Shown here piece after piece: positions 44,039 through 54,407 of a stretch of DNA of 59,930 nucleotides (its first letter is position 1; each line of letters opens with the position of its first letter). The notes under the pieces are model-generated. The model did not search any database. It had not been told where the DNA came from and saw only the letters and a list, made by a program, of their open reading frames with translations. Made by a program: the position numbers and the translations under genes. The DNA comes from a virus. The DNA lies in IMG/VR virus record IMGVR_UViG_3300017917_001272, positions 1-59,930 of that record; one strand, given 5' to 3'.

Positions 44039-44992
44039 TTATCCTAAGAAATATCCTGAAAAATGTGAATGTCCCATATAAACACTTGATCCAGAAAGTG
44101 ATTGCCAGTCACCCACAGAAACATAATCATTAACATTTAAACTTAAAACAACAGACTGTGACCAAGCCGAGCCAGAGATCATATTAAGATTATTATATGA
44201 TGTATTATTAACCTTTATGGTCATTCTATTTGTTGCTGTATTAACAAAAAGAGATGTTGTAAATAAATATTTACCAGCAATTGGCGCTGTAAATCTATAA
44301 GTAGATGTATTAAAATGGCTTCCTACGTTTACTATTGCATTATTAAAAGGAAAGTCTGCGCCGTTTGTAAGCGTATAACTTGATTCTGCGCCCCTAGCAT
44401 AAAAATATGGCTGATATGGCATTGTAACTCTACCAGAGGAATCTATTATCATTCTTTGTACGCCGCCAGTATAAAAAACATTGTTTGATCCGAGGAGCAT
44501 CAGGGGGTTTGCTGTATCTGCTCCTGTTTTTTGCAAAAATTCAAATCCATTAACAGCATTTTCGAATAAATTGACAAAATTTGTTTCTGCTGCACCAGCA
44601 CTTCTATTCCAAGATACACTTACTCCGCCTTGATTGATAGATGGGTGTAGTGTTGCAGTATTGTATTGTCCAATTAAACTGTATCCACCAGTAACATGTA
44701 ATGTAGATACTGGATTTGTTGTTCCTATTCCAACTCTATTATTTGCAGAATCTACATATAAAGTATTTGTGTCAACAGTTAAATTTCCCGCAATATTTCC
44801 CGATGAAGCAGAAAGATTTCCAGATACTGCAATATTAGCAGCAGAAGCAGTTCCTGTAAAATTTGGTGATGCAATAGGAGACTTTTCATTGTCTAATTCA
44901 ATAATTGCATCTGCAACCGTAGTGGCAGAAATATTACCAGTTGGCGTGAATGGATTCAATGTTTCTTGTGCTGGAATTAAATATCCTGGCAT
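44039..44992 (-). CDS. Tail fibre protein with C1q-like tip, 317 aa
   Basis: A 317-residue fibre. The N-domain (MPGYLIPAQETLNPFTPTGN, then ISATTVADAIIELDNEKSPI) is shared with the 177-aa gene next to it. One SPNFTGTASAANIAVSGN shaft unit follows, then LYVDSANNRVGIGTTNP, a shaft motif common in fibre proteins. The C-terminal ~125 residues are C1q-like: YFYARGAESSYTLTNGADFP, HFNTSTYRFTAPIAGKYLFT, SVVLSLNVNDYVSVGDWQSL and SHFSGYFLG. C1q heads trimerise and often bind sugars or proteins. No S74 autoprotease was seen. Leaderless start. Confidence 0.83.
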   Translation of the reverse strand: MPGYLIPAQETLNPFTPTGNISATTVADAIIELDNEKSPIASPNFTGTASAANIAVSGNLSASSGNIAGNLTVDTNTLYVDSANNRVGIGTTNPVSTLHVTGGYSLIGQYNTATLHPSINQGGVSVSWNRSAGAAETNFVNLFENAVNGFEFLQKTGADTANPLMLLGSNNVFYTGGVQRMIIDSSGRVTMPYQPYFYARGAESSYTLTNGADFPFNNAIVNVGSHFNTSTYRFTAPIAGKYLFTTSLFVNTATNRMTIKVNNTSYNNLNMISGSAWSQSVVLSLNVNDYVSVGDWQSLSGSSVYMGHSHFSGYFLG

Positions 44993-45004: not shown

Positions 45005-45412
45005 TCATTTAAAGTTATTTGGTAATATGAGTTTTTTTTCTACTATTTTTTGTTCTGGTGGAGTGGGAGAGTTTTTTGTTCTAGGATAATAAATATTGTT
45101 TATGATCAAGAACTGCTCTAATCTTTCATTCGCCATCCAACCTTCAAATTCTTGCCACACCATCCAATTTTTTGTTACTACATAATACTCTGCATATGGC
45201 TGATATGCGGCATAAACACCTATTGGGCCACTAGATTCACTAATTACTTCCCATAGATCTACATCCTCAAACCTTATTGGCCTATTTCCATTCCACGGCA
45301 TTGGTTCTGGAGCGTATTGCCAAATACGATCATAGTTCATCCAATTTTCTTCAAAAAACTCTCCGTCTTTTGACAAATTAAGAATTTGTTCTGTTACTTT
45401 CCATCGTGGCAC
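45005..45412 (-). CDS. Hypothetical protein, 135 aa, GTG leaderless start
   Basis: A 135-residue protein rich in Trp and Tyr: RIWQYAPEPMPWNGNRPIRF, then EDVDLWEVISESSGPIGVYA, YYVVTKNWMVWQEFEGWMAN. I do not recognise the family. The GTG start lies exactly 6 bases behind TAAAAT, the same geometry as the ATG leaderless starts. The gene lies back to back with the oxygenase operon, 69 bases away, and precedes fibre genes. It could be a fibre accessory or a partner of the oxygenases, but only position suggests either. Confidence 0.6.
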   Translation of the reverse strand: MPRWKVTEQILNLSKDGEFFEENWMNYDRIWQYAPEPMPWNGNRPIRFEDVDLWEVISESSGPIGVYAAYQPYAEYYVVTKNWMVWQEFEGWMANERLEQFLIINNIYYPRTKNSPTPPEQKIVEKKLILPNNFK

Positions 45413-45418
45413 AAATAT

Positions 45419-45424
45419 ATTTTA
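45419..45424 (-). promoter_or_regulatory. -10 box, leaderless GTG start
   Basis: TAAAAT on the minus strand, ending exactly 6 bases before the GTG at 45412. It forms a divergent pair with the plus-strand box at 45455. Confidence 0.55.
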
Positions 45425-45454
45425 CCCTAAAATAATTTTTTTAGTGTATCATGA

Positions 45455-45460
45455 TATAAT
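45455..45460 (+). promoter_or_regulatory. Extended -10 box of oxygenase-halogenase operon
   Basis: TGATATAAT on the plus strand, 21 bases before the ATG at 45482. The short leader carries GAAAGGG. It is the only promoter-like site seen for the three-gene operon and has the same form as the phage's own promoters. Confidence 0.6.
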
Positions 45461-45481
45461 TTTGTGGTCGAAAGGGCTTTT

Positions 45482-46114
45482 ATGACTGTAAAAATAGGAA
45501 ATTTATTTCCTGGAGAACTAAAGCCAGACACAACCGTTGCAGGATGCATAGATATTTTTGAAAATGTGTGGCCTGATCCTTTAGGGACTATTGCAAAAGT
45601 TGAAGATGAGTCTGGCAAAAAAGATTCTGGAATGAATTGGGTTAGAGCAACAACATTGGGCCAAGGGACAAATCAAAATTATAGAACAAACTATCATCTT
45701 GGAATAACCGTTTCGGCGTGGCAAGACAATAACTTGCTAGCGCAGAATATTCATAATCAGATGTACCTTCTGCTTCTTGCCGCAACCACTCCTTATGCTC
45801 AAAAGCACAATATTCCATATTTATTTCATGAGGACTATCAAATGCTTAGATACTCTGGTGGTCAGCATTATAAGGCTCACTCTGATGGGAATACCGATAG
45901 CGGAAGAACGGTTTCTGCAATTATTTATCTTAATGATGATTATGTTGGTGGAGAAATAGAATTTGTAAATTTTGGTATTAAGATAAAGCCTCAAAGGGGT
46001 ATGTTAATTTTGTTTCCATCAAATTATGCATATAGTCATATCGCTCACCCCGTAACAGAAGGAACCAAATATGCCTTGGTTACTTGGATTAAGGATAGAG
46101 AAATATGTCAATAA
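45482..46114 (+). CDS. Fe(II)/2-oxoglutarate oxygenase, prolyl-hydroxylase-like
   Basis: A 210-residue protein with a P4H-type double-stranded beta-helix. Iron ligands are H133 and D135 (HYKAHSDGNT) and H186 (YSHIAHPV); K196 in GTKYALVTW should bind 2-oxoglutarate. Core strands: YQMLRYSGGQHYKAHSDG, SAIIYLNDDYVGGEIEFVNF, and KPQRGMLILFPS. The pattern is closest to prolyl 4-hydroxylase/PKHD enzymes, which hydroxylate proline or other side chains using O2 and 2-oxoglutarate. I chose ATG 45482 because AAAGGG lies five bases upstream; an in-frame GTG at 45464 is only three bases behind the -10 box. First gene of a three-gene operon; it overlaps the next by ten bases. Substrate unknown. Confidence 0.88.
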   Translation: MTVKIGNLFPGELKPDTTVAGCIDIFENVWPDPLGTIAKVEDESGKKDSGMNWVRATTLGQGTNQNYRTNYHLGITVSAWQDNNLLAQNIHNQMYLLLLAATTPYAQKHNIPYLFHEDYQMLRYSGGQHYKAHSDGNTDSGRTVSAIIYLNDDYVGGEIEFVNFGIKIKPQRGMLILFPSNYAYSHIAHPVTEGTKYALVTWIKDREICQ

Positions 46115-46713
46115 AAAAATTTAATGAAAATGGTTATGTGCTTATAAAAAATGCCTTGAACAAAGATATTGTAGATATTATTACTCAATACGCTCTTTTT
46201 GATGAAATACAAGATTTTAGCCCAGATACCCTGCAAGTAGTTGGCGCTCATGCCAAATATGCCGACCCTGCGATGGAATCTCTTCTTTTATATTTTCTTC
46301 CATTAGTAGAAGAAAATACTGGTCTTGAACTATATCCAACCTATTCTTTTTATAGAGTATATAGGAATGGCGATATTCTTGAGCCACATACCGATAGAAA
46401 TTCTTGTGAAATATCAATAACTGTTTGCTTTAATTATAATTATGATGATGAAAAATATTCTTGGCCAATCGTGATGGACGGGCAAAAAATAACAATGAAG
46501 CCTGGAGATATTGTAATATACAGAGGAACTGAATTAGAGCATTCACGAGGGGAATTCAAGCCTCCTCTGGATTCGTGGCACGTTCAAGGCTTCTTTCACT
46601 ATGTAGACGTTAATGGTAAAAATGCTGAATATAAATATGATAAAAGATTATCCTTGGGGCTTTTGCCAAATCAACAATTAAAGAAGCCATATATTCAATA
46701 TACTGGGAGATAG
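46105..46713 (+). CDS. Second Fe(II)/2-oxoglutarate oxygenase
   Basis: A 202-residue oxygenase of a different subtype from its neighbour. Seen: VYRNGDILEPHTDRNSCE with H95 and D97 as iron ligands, ELEHSRGEF with H146 as third ligand and R148 as likely 2-oxoglutarate anchor. The N-terminus (KKFNENGYVLIKNALNKDIV) has the 'f...GyvlikN.l....' opening of phytanoyl-CoA hydroxylase-like and tail-to-P4H oxygenases. Its start overlaps the previous gene by 10 bases and the halogenase follows after one base, so the three proteins are made together. Both oxygenases keep their full facial triads, so both should be active. Substrate unknown. Confidence 0.86.
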   Translation: MSIKKFNENGYVLIKNALNKDIVDIITQYALFDEIQDFSPDTLQVVGAHAKYADPAMESLLLYFLPLVEENTGLELYPTYSFYRVYRNGDILEPHTDRNSCEISITVCFNYNYDDEKYSWPIVMDGQKITMKPGDIVIYRGTELEHSRGEFKPPLDSWHVQGFFHYVDVNGKNAEYKYDKRLSLGLLPNQQLKKPYIQYTGR

Positions 46714-46714
46714 A

Positions 46715-48160
46715 ATGAAAGTTTTAGTTGTTGGTGGGGGAACTGCTGGATTAATGACAGCAATTATTTTAAAAAAACATTTGAACTATCAAATCGATGT
46801 TGTACGATCTGAAAAAATAGGAATTGTTGGTGTTGGTGAAGGATCTACAGAACACTTTAAAGAATTTTTAAACTTTTGCGGAATAGATCAATATTCAATA
46901 CTAAAAGAATGTGGCGCAACATATAAGGGTGGAATTCTTTTTGAAAATTTTGGATCAAAAACTTATATGCATAATGTATCTTGTCCTTTTGATAGCCGTG
47001 CCGCGCAATATAGTTATGTTTATGGAAAGCAAATTGCTGAAAATAGCGAATATATGCAATCACGGCTTATATGGGAAAATAAAATAAATTCTTGGCACAT
47101 GAATAGACTACATGATATGCCATTTAATCAATTTCATTTTGATACATTTAAACTCAACAATTTTCTAACAAAATTTTCACAGCAAATTGGAATAAATTTT
47201 TATGATGATGAAATTATTGAAGTTGAGTTAAACCACAATGGCGAAATTGATTGTGTTGTAGGAGAAAAACAATCATACAATTATGATTTTTATATTGATT
47301 CAACTGGTTTTAAGAAAATACTAATGTCAAAACTTGGTAGCAAATGGATTTCTTTTAGCAAATATATGAAAATGAATTCTGCAATAACATTTCAAACAGA
47401 AGAAACAGACGAATACAATCTTTGGACACTTGCAGAAGGAATGAAATATGGATGGCTATTTAGGCTTCCCACGCAAGAACGTTATGGCAATGGATATATT
47501 TTTGATGACAGATATATTGATATTGATAAAGCAAAATTTGAAGTAGAACAGTTATTTAAAAAAGAAATAAATATTGGAAGAACGTTTAAATTTGATCCAG
47601 GTTGCATAGATAGGCCTTGGATAAAAAATTGTGTTGCTGTTGGACTAAGCAGCCTATTTGTTGAACCTTTAGAAGCAAGTTCTATTGGTAGCACAATACA
47701 ACAGGCATTTTTATTAATGCATAGGATTTCTGGATACAATGAAAAAGTTATAGAATCATACAACAAATCTTTTAGCGATATTGTTGAAAATATTAGAGAT
47801 TTTATTGTTTTACACTACATAACCGATAGAAGAGATACTGAATTTTGGTTAGATGTTTCTCAACAAGAGATTCCAGATTCCTTGGCGGAAAAGTTAAAAG
47901 TTTGGAAACATCGGCTACCCATTAAAGAAGATTTTAACGATTATTCTGATTATATAATGTTTTCAGAAAGCAATTTTATTGTCGTTATGCATGGATTGAA
48001 TATGTTTGATAGAAATTCGATAAAATTAGAATATGAAGCAAAACAGTCTTGGATTCATGAAAGTGCAAACAATATAATTGCAGAACAAGTATCTAATGAA
48101 AATATAGTAAAAACTATTGGACATAAAAACTTTATAAAAATAGTAAAAGAATATCTTTAA
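46715..48160 (+). CDS. Flavin-dependent halogenase, tryptophan-halogenase family
   Basis: A 481-residue FAD enzyme of the PrnA/tryptophan halogenase family. FAD-binding GGGTAG is at residues 7-12, with GVGEGSTEHF at 39-48. The catalytic Lys is K71 (GATYKGGILF). YIDSTGF lies at 193-199. The WxWxIP signature appears as GWLFRLP at 246-252, so the second Trp is Phe. FVEPLEASSIG at 315-325 holds the active-site Glu region. The family oxidises chloride, bromide or iodide with reduced FAD; a separate flavin reductase is needed and none is encoded here. A flavin-dependent halogenase from a marine cyanophage (VirX1) is already known to be active. The stop codon abuts the stop of the convergent glycine-rich gene. 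Codons look more AT-rich than in the head genes. Confidence 0.9.
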   Translation: MKVLVVGGGTAGLMTAIILKKHLNYQIDVVRSEKIGIVGVGEGSTEHFKEFLNFCGIDQYSILKECGATYKGGILFENFGSKTYMHNVSCPFDSRAAQYSYVYGKQIAENSEYMQSRLIWENKINSWHMNRLHDMPFNQFHFDTFKLNNFLTKFSQQIGINFYDDEIIEVELNHNGEIDCVVGEKQSYNYDFYIDSTGFKKILMSKLGSKWISFSKYMKMNSAITFQTEETDEYNLWTLAEGMKYGWLFRLPTQERYGNGYIFDDRYIDIDKAKFEVEQLFKKEINIGRTFKFDPGCIDRPWIKNCVAVGLSSLFVEPLEASSIGSTIQQAFLLMHRISGYNEKVIESYNKSFSDIVENIRDFIVLHYITDRRDTEFWLDVSQQEIPDSLAEKLKVWKHRLPIKEDFNDYSDYIMFSESNFIVVMHGLNMFDRNSIKLEYEAKQSWIHESANNIIAEQVSNENIVKTIGHKNFIKIVKEYL

Positions 48161-48173
48161 TTAAGAAAGATAT
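48151..48173. repeat. Inverted repeat at two abutting stop codons
   Basis: Arms ATATCTTT (48151-48158) and AAAGATAT (48166-48173) around 7 bases, spanning the convergent stop codons TAA (48158-48160) and TAA on the minus strand (48161-48163). It might act as a weak two-way terminator, but the stem has only one G-C pair. Confidence 0.35.
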
Positions 48174-49075
48174 CTTACTATAACTACTCCTGGTCCACCG
48201 AAACCTGCACTAGCATTTGCACTATGACCAGTTCCACCTGAACCAGAGCCAGTATTTGTTCCAGCAGAAGTAGACGATTGACCTCCACCAACAGTTCCTG
48301 GAGTTCCTCCTCCTGAGCCGCCAGTTCCAGCGGTATGTCCAGCAGTAATTCCTCCCCCTCCACCGCCAGCACGAATTACAGCAGTTCCATTAATTGAATT
48401 TGTTAATCCACTTCCTCCTGGTCCTGCTGGCTGCCCTCCGCCACCAGAGCCGCCTGGAAATCCCTGTCCAGATGATGCAGCACCGAATGTAGCGCCTCCT
48501 GGTTGAGCATTTGTTCCAGCAGATCCTGCTCCTCCGCCGCCGCCGCCAGCATGAGGCGAGGCTCCTGATCCACCACCGCCACCACCAGAGCCGCCATTTT
48601 TTCCTGTTTGTCCTCCAGCGGGATTATTGTTTACTCCTCCAGGAATGGTAGCCGCAGCATTGTGTGTTCCTCCCCCTCCACCGCCAGTGGCGGTCACTGT
48701 ATGAAAAACAGAGTTTTGTCCATTTTCTCCAACATAGTATGTGCCATTACCAGGTCCATAGTTTGTTCCCTCTCCTCCAGCCCCCACAGTCACAGGATAT
48801 GTTCCAGGAGTCATATTAGAAAATGTTCCAGTTAAATATCCCCCTGCTCCGCCTCCTCCAGAGAGTCCAGTACCACCCCTACCTCCTCCAGCAAGAACTA
48901 AATACTCAACATTTGCAATGCCCTCATTAATAACAAACGATGTTGGACCATTCGTGGCAAATGTATGAATGGTATATCCTCCAGCGGTGGTGATTGATCC
49001 ACCACTTGCATTCAATGTTTGTGAAACAGCATTCATGCTAAAAAATGTTGGATACTTTAATCTTGATACCGCCAT
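48161..49075 (-). CDS. Glycine-rich adhesin/fibre-tip protein, 304 aa
   Basis: A 304-residue protein. Residues 1-75 are a beta opening (VSRLKYPTFFSMNAVSQTLN; TTAGGYTIHTFATNGPTSFV; GIANVEYLVLAGGGRGGTGL). From about residue 68 to 290 it is dominated by Gly with Ala, Ser and Thr, with repeated runs of four to six glycines, and it ends FGGPGVVIVRYLS. This fits a polyglycine-II sandwich tip as in some T-even adhesins and many glycine-rich phage proteins. Several Pro-Gly dipeptides (IPGG, QPGG, FPGG, GPGG, TPGT) lie between the runs. Its stop touches that of the halogenase gene. Likely receptor-binding. Confidence 0.82.
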   Translation of the reverse strand: MAVSRLKYPTFFSMNAVSQTLNASGGSITTAGGYTIHTFATNGPTSFVINEGIANVEYLVLAGGGRGGTGLSGGGGAGGYLTGTFSNMTPGTYPVTVGAGGEGTNYGPGNGTYYVGENGQNSVFHTVTATGGGGGGTHNAAATIPGGVNNNPAGGQTGKNGGSGGGGGGSGASPHAGGGGGGAGSAGTNAQPGGATFGAASSGQGFPGGSGGGGQPAGPGGSGLTNSINGTAVIRAGGGGGGITAGHTAGTGGSGGGTPGTVGGGQSSTSAGTNTGSGSGGTGHSANASAGFGGPGVVIVRYLS

Positions 49076-53125: not shown

Positions 53126-53164
53126 ACAGGACTTCATTGTTATTAAATCGTTACCGTGAAAAAT

Positions 53165-53193
53165 TTGACACCTTCACAAAAGGTGCTTATAAT
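53165..53193 (+). promoter_or_regulatory. Consensus promoter of thyX with spacer dyad
   Basis: Plus strand: TTGACA (53165-53170), 17-base spacer, TATAAT (53188-53193). A dyad CACCTT / AAGGTG (53169-53174 and 53180-53185) overlaps the spacer. The transcript starts near 53200 and its leader of about 55 bases ends with AAAGG before the GTG at 53255. The promoter lies inside the longest open frame, which argues against a start at 53156. Confidence 0.78.
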
Positions 53194-53254
53194 TTCTTTT
53201 TATAAAAGAGAGAGAAAAAAGAAAAGTATCTCTACCCTAGCAGAAAGGTCTTTC

Positions 53255-53959
53255 GTGACCCAATTTTCAGTTCTTGATCATGGATATGTTCGTTTAATTA
53301 ATAATATGGGTTCCGACCTTGATATTGTAAATGCTGCAAGAGTTAGTTTTGATAAAGAAGTTTCAGATCTTTCTGATTCTGATATTAAACTCATCAACTT
53401 CTTGGTAAAGCATAAGCACGATTCTACCTTGAGACATTGTGTGATGACTTTTGAGGTTTATGCTCCTCTGATGGTTGCTAGACAGTGGTGGAAACATCAC
53501 ATCGGATCTGCTGCCCTTGATGATCAGGATGGGTGGAATGAATCATCTCGTCGCTATGTAACAGAGAATGAGCAATTCTATATCCCTGCCATTGATGCGT
53601 GGCGCTCAGTACCCGAAAATCGCAAGCAGGGCAGCGGTGAGCCGATTGAATTGGATAAGGCGGCTAAATACCATCAGGCAATGATTCGAACCGTTAGAGA
53701 TGGCCACAATCTTTATTTAGAGGCACTTGCAGATGGTGTAGCGCCAGAACAGGCAAGACTTCTTCTTCCTGCCTATGCTATGTATGTCCGTTGGAGGTGG
53801 ACGGTAAGCCTAAATGGACTTCTTCATTTCCTCTCACTCCGCCTTGGTCATGGTGCTCAATATGAAATCGTAGAATATGCTAAAGTTATCAATACGATTG
53901 TTGAAGAGCATTATCCAATTACAACAAAAGCATGGAATGAGTTCAGAGTTGATTCATAA
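53255..53959 (+). CDS. thyX: Flavin-dependent thymidylate synthase ThyX
   Basis: A 234-residue ThyX that makes dTMP from dUMP with FAD and methylene-tetrahydrofolate. The start GTG 53255 gives the family opening (VLDHGYVRLINNMG) and has AAAGG six bases upstream; the longer frame from 53156 would span the promoter. Conserved C-terminal part: LLLPAYAMYVRWRWTVSLNG then LLHFLSLRL. The signature region is unusual: instead of RHRxxS the protein reads RQWWKHHIGS (76-85), then a nine-residue insert (86-94), then NESSRRY (95-101). Both signature arginines are replaced by Lys and His. It may use a shifted motif or have lower activity. Pairs with the class II reductase for dNTP supply. Confidence 0.9.
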   Translation: MTQFSVLDHGYVRLINNMGSDLDIVNAARVSFDKEVSDLSDSDIKLINFLVKHKHDSTLRHCVMTFEVYAPLMVARQWWKHHIGSAALDDQDGWNESSRRYVTENEQFYIPAIDAWRSVPENRKQGSGEPIELDKAAKYHQAMIRTVRDGHNLYLEALADGVAPEQARLLLPAYAMYVRWRWTVSLNGLLHFLSLRLGHGAQYEIVEYAKVINTIVEEHYPITTKAWNEFRVDS

Positions 53960-54407
53960 TTATGTTTCTCCCCGCGCAAGAAAGCGTGCCGCTAAGTGGC
54001 GTCTTGTTGGCATGATCAAAACTTGGCGGGGATGCATAGATTGTGGATATAATTCTCATCCTGAAGCATTACAATTTGATCACATAAATAATGATAAGAA
54101 AGACAATGTATCAAATTTGATACGAAGCGATTATGCTTGGTCAACTATCTTAAATGAAATAAATAAATGTGAGATTCGATGTGCTAATTGTCACGCGGTA
54201 ATGACTGCTCATAGGAAACGCGCATATCGTGAATCTGAGCCATCAACTGTTCATTTTGAGTCTTTAGGGCAGCAAGATCTTGACGAAGAAGTTCATTCTC
54301 AGCAATCAATTCCTCTATCTTTTGACGAGCCTCCGATAATTCTAGGCGAAGTTCCTGCATTGTCATCTGCATGGTTTCGACGGCTTCTCCCGAAGCACCA
54401 GCAATAA
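53937..54407 (+). CDS. HNH endonuclease with antisense C-terminal tail
   Basis: A 156-residue protein. The HNH fold is clear: WRGCIDCGYNS with C33/C36, LQFDHINNDKKDNVSNL with D48-H49, and CEIRCANCHAVMTAHRKR with C82/C85-H86. Such free-standing HNH nucleases are often homing enzymes or packaging helpers. The ATG at 53937 lies inside the end of thyX (23-base overlap). The domain ends near residue 100; the last ~57 residues have no nuclease pattern and are encoded opposite a coiled-coil gene (54184-54516), overlapping it by 224 bases. The original stop was probably lost. Confidence 0.8.
   Translation: MSSELIHNYVSPRARKRAAKWRLVGMIKTWRGCIDCGYNSHPEALQFDHINNDKKDNVSNLIRSDYAWSTILNEINKCEIRCANCHAVMTAHRKRAYRESEPSTVHFESLGQQDLDEEVHSQQSIPLSFDEPPIILGEVPALSSAWFRRLLPKHQQ

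Follow-up and report, generated by a model that had tools for sequence, protein, structure and literature searches.

The viral record IMGVR_UViG_3300017917_001272 of IMG/VR, a contig of an uncultured phage analysed over its whole length of 59,930 nucleotides (the window), carries a three-gene operon inside a block of fibre genes that lie on the opposite strand. The operon encodes two 2-oxoglutarate (2OG) and Fe(II)-dependent oxygenases, oxyA and oxyB, and a flavin-dependent halogenase. It is flanked by the genes of a tryptophan- and proline-rich protein, F0, and of a glycine-rich, adhesin-like protein. These enzymes co-occur in many unrelated phages, beyond chance and beside fibre or adhesin genes. 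The recurring unit is a modular set, consisting of several 2OG oxygenases and one or more halogenases or a carbamoyltransferase, rather than this exact trio. The explanation favoured here, tentatively, is that the trio is a variant of a modular operon whose products tailor fibre or accessory proteins post-translationally.

Recurrence of the enzyme set in phages

The contigs of IMG/VR are fragments and the sets obtained by scanning them are pattern-limited samples; the counts below are among the matches listed, and loci were made non-redundant at a threshold of 90% identity. The halogenase used as a single sequence gave no matches in IMG/VR, and a profile scan was needed. Profile scans with oxyB and oxyA gave at least about 100 loci. 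The oxyA gene is usually the first in, or a part of, a same-strand operon with oxyB, extra 2OG oxygenase genes (PF13640, PF13759 and DUF6445) and at least one halogenase, the halogenases falling into two clades. Counts were limited to the 43 non-redundant oxyA loci with enough flanking sequence: oxyB is present in 35, a halogenase in 33, a carbamoyltransferase in four, and either a halogenase or a carbamoyltransferase in 36. The third slot of the operon is swappable. In loci L225-L231 and L199, a carbamoyltransferase of the NodU/TobZ type stands in place of the halogenase after oxyA and oxyB, again in a fibre locus.

The two oxygenases are also found fused. Gene 301 of cyanophage S-SCSM2R encodes a protein of 427 amino acids, in which residues 6-196 correspond to oxyB and residues 240-426 to oxyA. 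It is followed by glycosyltransferases, including a GT25 member, and by a gene annotated as a radical S-adenosylmethionine maturase of the SkfB/NifB/PqqE kind; a 2OG oxygenase and an amidinotransferase complete what, by its gene content, may be a richer tailoring cluster (L459:6300-14333).

When the scan of IMG/VR was anchored on the halogenase, a motif-checked 2OG oxygenase gene was found within 3 kb in 51 of 68 non-redundant loci and directly adjacent in 34. The density of 2OG genes per 10 kb falls from 5.6 at less than 1 kb from the halogenase to 0.34 at 8-10 kb, the baseline around portal genes being 0.17.

The earlier note on this DNA had expected the three genes to co-occur next to fibre genes, and had taken rare co-occurrence in relatives as an argument against a common function. 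The expectation is borne out where oxyA is present, as the frequencies of oxyB and halogenase given above indicate, but this precise set of three is uncommon in relatives of the phage: of the 46 contigs whose portals are related, one (G041) has a PF04820 (halogenase) gene. The portal of G041 is 80% identical to that of the window, and its oxyA (63%) and oxyB (66%) occupy the same fibre site. Its halogenase is only 26% identical to that of the window; the oxygenase pair was thus retained, and the halogenase belongs to another clade. Beside the pair are a Gly-rich gene (43%) and a gene of 110 amino acids (50%), and a copy of F0 (85%) is located at the other side. In a further relative, G046, parts of the homologous array are present; its contig contains neither a PF04820 nor a PF13640 gene, and F0 and the Gly-rich gene are both missing from the stretch that was read.

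Several other arrangements were noticed. Two portal relatives that lack a halogenase, G073 (L193) and G072, have runs of six to ten genes for 2OG oxygenases. Each of the contigs L023, L025, L027, L028 and L032 combines several 2OG oxygenases with four to five halogenase open reading frames (ORFs) in a span of about 20 kb. The operon families o5/o6 (phrog_7084) and o12 (phrog_17480) are recurrent and have no consistent HxD...H motif (e.g. L291:5298-5999 and L214:5621-6340).

Comparison with bacterial halogenase loci

Bacterial halogenases of the same superfamily have a 2OG gene within 3 kb in 2 of 79 loci, compared with 51 of 68 in phages (p=4e-22). The bacterial count excludes L379, a contig in which four 2OG genes accompany two ORFs for halogenases and which was binned in a Verrucomicrobia metagenome-assembled genome (TMED56) and is probably a phage contig. 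As the 2OG profiles had been built on phage genes, the count was repeated with Pfam, using four neighbours of each of 24 loci, or 96 proteins, in the phage and bacterial sets alike. PF13640 accounts for 18 and PF13759 for 16 of the phage neighbours, 34 together. Neither family is among the 25 most frequent ones of the bacterial neighbours, where single matches outside those 25 are possible; the TonB plug (13) and SapC (3) stand out instead. In some bacteria, too, genes for surface receptors and oxygenase-like proteins lie close to the Trp halogenase, at loci that include TonB receptor, SapC, Cupin_8 and DUF6445 genes. These loci differ from the window in the rarity of nearby 2OG genes and in their halogenases, which are mostly 27-33% identical to that of the window.

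The three enzymes

OxyA matches PF13640 (E=1e-17). Residues H133, D135, H186 and K196 are invariant in 31 diverse homologues and make up an HxD...H triad with a lysine at position +10 from the distal histidine. A lysine ten residues past the distal histidine is the signature of prolyl 4-hydroxylases (P4Hs). The solved structures nearest to the oxyA profile are those of a bacterial P4H (2e-12), vCPH (1e-9) and EGLN1, followed by prolyl 3-hydroxylase and the lysyl hydroxylase LH3, so that the best relatives are nearly all protein hydroxylases. OxyA is accordingly classed, from its sequence, as a putative P4H-type 2OG oxygenase, and hydroxylation of proline is predicted from profile similarity.

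OxyB has no match in Pfam and belongs to phrog_2954 (E=2e-43). H95, D97 and H146 are invariant in 34 homologues, so that the iron-binding triads reported for both oxygenases in the earlier note are indeed intact. R148, two residues past the distal histidine, is also invariant, and no invariant Arg or Lys is found from H+8 to H+12. The AlphaFold2 model of oxyB (predicted local distance difference test score, pLDDT, 93.6) has as its top Foldseek match the P4H of P. putida (E=2e-11), one entry of which was solved with EF-Tu, and then PHD2. The model thus places oxyB in the 2OG-Fe(II) oxygenase superfamily, with a predicted double-stranded beta-helix fold bearing HxD...H. Comparison of the oxyA and oxyB profiles indicates weak homology (probability 25%). 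No oxyB was found in bacterial genomes with the search patterns used.

What oxyA has in common with the known P4Hs (5hv0, 3itq, vCPH 5c5t, EGLN1) is the H-x-D...H...K (+10) signature and profile similarity, and what oxyB has in common with the P. putida P4H (4j25/4iw3) is the fold. The two differ from these enzymes in that sequence similarity is confined to the catalytic domain, and the proline substrate is a prediction here.

PHROG labels phrog_2954 as 'ferrochelatase'. The proteins that match bear 2OG motifs, and both this label and 'DNA endonuclease V' were therefore set aside as inherited annotation. PHROGs 2954, 3531, 274 and 2297 all carry 'ferrochelatase' or 'DNA endonuclease' labels on families whose members here are 2OG oxygenases, and the error has likely spread in cyanophage records.

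The halogenase matches PF04820 with E=5e-89. The glycines Gly7, Gly9 and Gly12 of its N-terminal flavin adenine dinucleotide (FAD) motif, GGGTAG, are kept in 163-165 of 167 phage homologues, the catalytic Lys71 (K79 of PrnA) in 166, Glu317 in 167 and Glu320, the glutamate of the EPLE/S motif, in 164; the FAD, Lys71 and EPLE motifs recognized earlier are therefore conserved throughout the phage group. The WxWxIP motif reads W247-L-F249-R-L-P252, the second tryptophan being replaced by phenylalanine, as it is in 59 of the 167 homologues. The family score and the catalytic residues place the enzyme in the PF04820 superfamily but do not establish it as a canonical Trp halogenase.

Candidate substrates

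F0 is the most Trp/Pro-rich protein among the minus-strand ORFs of the window that were examined (W 5.9%, P 8.9%). It lies within 4.5 kb of oxyA in 26 of the 43 non-redundant loci. Of the 77 loci in a scan anchored on F0, which makes no use of oxyA, 58 contain a 2OG gene of the operon type and 47 contain oxyA. Residues P35, W40, W54 and P72 of F0 are conserved. None of 50,697 records of cultured phages matches F0, and the F0 model (pLDDT 78.8) has no match in the PDB with E below 0.5. Proteins of about 160 amino acids are encoded between the adhesin and the halogenase in Syn10, S-CREM1 and S-RIM44; homology of F0 to these was rejected on comparison.

Gly-rich genes occur at 0.65 per 10 kb at oxyA loci and at 0.075 at portal loci, which are not fibre regions. 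Within loci they are no nearer to the enzymes than other genes are, and the enrichment is therefore one of the locus as a whole. For both reasons it lends weak support to an adhesin as the target. Collagen-like GXY repeats were considered as a possible P4H substrate in the window and discarded, since the longest run, in the Gly-rich gene, is of five.

Similar clusters in cultured cyanophages

The gene order in Sf-CH11 is: structural gene, Gly-rich gene, P4H, 2OG oxygenase, Trp halogenase, 2OG oxygenase, oxyB, Gly-rich gene and neck gene. In S-CREM1 a Gly-rich gene termed 'collagen-like' is accompanied by a halogenase, a JmjC gene and eight genes annotated as 2OG oxygenases. S-RIM44 and Syn10 each have two halogenases, which occur in S-RIM44 with three Gly-rich genes and four or more 2OG-like genes, and in Syn10 with Gly-rich genes and eight or more 2OG-like genes. 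PF21722, the family of the Gly-rich protein in the window, was confirmed in the Gly-rich proteins that adjoin the clusters of all four phages and of G041.

Syn10 is presumably the source of VirX1 (PDB 6qgm). VirX1 and the other PrnA-like halogenases of cyanophages share PF04820 and the catalytic Lys and Glu with the halogenase of the window, which differs in belonging to another clade; its nearest cultured relatives are the cyanophage halogenases of S-H38 and S-SCSM2R, at 42-44% identity. To our knowledge VirX1 is a stand-alone enzyme with no known native substrate, and we know of no established native substrates of viral halogenases or of the 2OG oxygenases of aquatic phages.

Arrays of 2OG-Fe(II) oxygenases have been described in cyanophages, ten in S-CREM1 and 24 in S-SCSM1 (PMC9964418). 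They resemble the window in their multiple PF13640 and PF13759 members, and the set of S-CREM1 adjoins the halogenase and the Gly-rich 'collagen-like' protein. A virion proteome of S-CREM1 has also been obtained (PMC9964418). These arrays have previously not been read as one tailoring system; phage 2OG oxygenases were explained by draw-down of 2OG, DNA repair or reprogramming of the host (PMC3037559, PMC9964418). No paper describing the combination of oxygenases and halogenase as one system was found in the full texts searched, among which few subscription papers are covered.

Proposed function and alternatives

In the tailoring explanation, oxyA and oxyB would act as hydroxylases on a protein that the fibre locus itself encodes. 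The third enzyme, here the flavin halogenase, would place a halogen on the hydroxylated residue or on one next to it. Elsewhere a halogenase of the other clade or an O-carbamoyltransferase would fill the third slot and add a halogen or a carbamoyl group. The target would most likely be a fibre-tip or accessory protein, with the Trp/Pro/Tyr-rich F0 as the first candidate and the Gly-rich adhesin as the second. Decoration may alter how the virion binds its receptor, how stable it is or how diverse its surface is. FADH2, Fe(II), 2OG and halide would be supplied by the host.

Several observations weigh against this explanation. There are 17 halogenase loci out of 68 with no 2OG gene within 3 kb, and the halogenase of HTVC008M lies between terminase genes, not fibre genes. 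The fold matches of oxyB include the small-molecule oxygenases EctD, SnoK and HalD. F0 and Gly-rich genes occur in the absence of the enzymes too (about 10 of the 77 F0 loci), so that neither is an obligate partner, a role that was rejected for F0 on this count; the enzyme-free F0 typically directly follows a fibre gene of about 300 amino acids, which makes it a protein of fibre loci independently of the enzymes. In the window, the Gly-rich neighbour contains Tyr and Pro and no Trp, which leaves F0 as the best Trp/Pro-rich candidate there. Fibre regions tend to gather cargo genes, and location alone is therefore insufficient. The substrate and its modification are candidates proposed from gene context. 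The weight of the tailoring explanation is carried by the recurring combination of enzymes, the affinity to P4Hs and the repeated Gly-rich or F0 neighbours.

The main rival, which is unlikely, is that a small molecule or secondary metabolite of the host (free tryptophan, a pigment or a signalling compound) is modified, the fibre locus being a tolerant site of cargo insertion. The substrates of characterized PrnA-type enzymes are free Trp or indoles, and the small-molecule enzymes among the fold matches of oxyB are in keeping with such a role. Phage halogenases have been interpreted in print as auxiliary metabolic genes (AMGs) for host metabolites or as antibiotic genes (PMC10452541, PMC9964418). 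Nevertheless, no scaffold-building biosynthetic gene was recognized in the window or in the identified operon families, oxyA is nearest to protein hydroxylases, and the repeated Gly-rich or F0 neighbours would need a separate reason. Less probable again is the next rival, modification of host proteins such as translation factors or surface receptors, by which the host would be redirected or superinfection blocked. It draws on the top fold match of oxyB, the P. putida P4H, of which a structure bound to EF-Tu exists, on the hydroxylation of ribosomal protein L16 by YcfD (PMC4295552), and on the TonB receptors and SapC that often adjoin bacterial halogenases of the superfamily, but leaves unexplained both the linkage to fibre loci and a large, variable repertoire of up to about ten oxygenases.

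The two remaining alternatives are improbable. The cluster could be a cargo island for counter-defence or superinfection exclusion, incidental in its location; its low G+C content and antisense placement suggest horizontal arrival, whereas a conserved combination of several enzymes resembles a biochemical pathway. Least probable of all is the modification of bases in phage DNA. Some 2OG oxygenases and phage carbamoyltransferases do act on nucleic-acid bases, but oxyA and oxyB match P4H/PHD folds, and the clusters accompany fibre and neck genes, not replication genes.

Organization of the locus

All three plus-strand genes described in the earlier note are present as ORFs within the minus-strand block (Table 1). 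The ATG start of oxyA at 45482 is backed by the alignment of 31 homologues. The minus-strand ORFs around the operon match tail-fibre, C1q and Gly-rich families, and the tail-fibre matches continue beyond. The G+C content of the operon, 32.1% against 39.1 +/- 3.0, is the lowest among the 2.7-kb stretches sampled on the contig and fits horizontal arrival.

Table 1. Features of the operon and its flanks in the window
Feature	Position	Strand	Remarks
oxyA, P4H-type 2OG-Fe(II) oxygenase (putative)	45482..46114	+	alternative GTG start 45464
oxyB, second 2OG-Fe(II) oxygenase (predicted)	46105..46713	+	phrog_2954; 10 bp overlap with oxyA
Flavin-dependent halogenase (predicted), PrnA/Trp_halogenase superfamily, phage clade 1	46715..48160	+	PF04820
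F0, 135-amino-acid Trp/Pro-rich protein, divergent to oxyA	45005..45412	-	candidate substrate or fibre accessory protein
Glycine-rich fibre/adhesin-like protein, directly abutting the halogenase stop	48161..49075	-	PF21722 E=1e-13
C1q-domain fibre gene flanking the operon	44039..44992	-	PF00386 E=5e-10
AT-rich inverted repeat, convergent halogenase/Gly-rich junction	48140..48180		possible bidirectional terminator; -9.7 kcal/mol, z -3.2
Divergent intergenic region F0/oxyA, 69 bp	45413..45481

Promoter signals in the divergent region do not rise above those of shuffled sequences, and the promoter and terminator scans were uninformative. Searches for tRNA genes and Rfam families gave no match. 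A flavin reductase (PF01613) was not found in the 59.9 kb record, possibly a fragment, in agreement with the earlier observation that none is encoded. The portal is closest to those of large Streptomyces phages, at 42-44% identity, so the host is likely, as far as this similarity tells, to be actinobacterial. A second plus-strand insertion in the minus-strand fibre block lies at 53156-54407, where thyX overlaps an ORF for an HNH endonuclease.

Implications

The linkage described here joins two loose lists of AMGs into one testable system with named candidate substrates. The cultured phages S-CREM1, Sf-CH11, S-RIM44 and Syn10 carry such clusters, which makes the tailoring explanation directly testable. 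A broader proposal, more doubtful than the explanation of the trio itself, is that a widespread modular system hydroxylates and then halogenates or carbamoylates the phage's own tail fibres, and that this is the native role of VirX1-type halogenases. Halogenation of virion proteins of this kind is not described in the literature searched. If the proposal is true, the attachment proteins would bear enzymatic hydroxyl, halogen and carbamoyl groups, a receptor-binding variation that is invisible to sequence, and the phages would be a source of protein halogenases for biotechnology.

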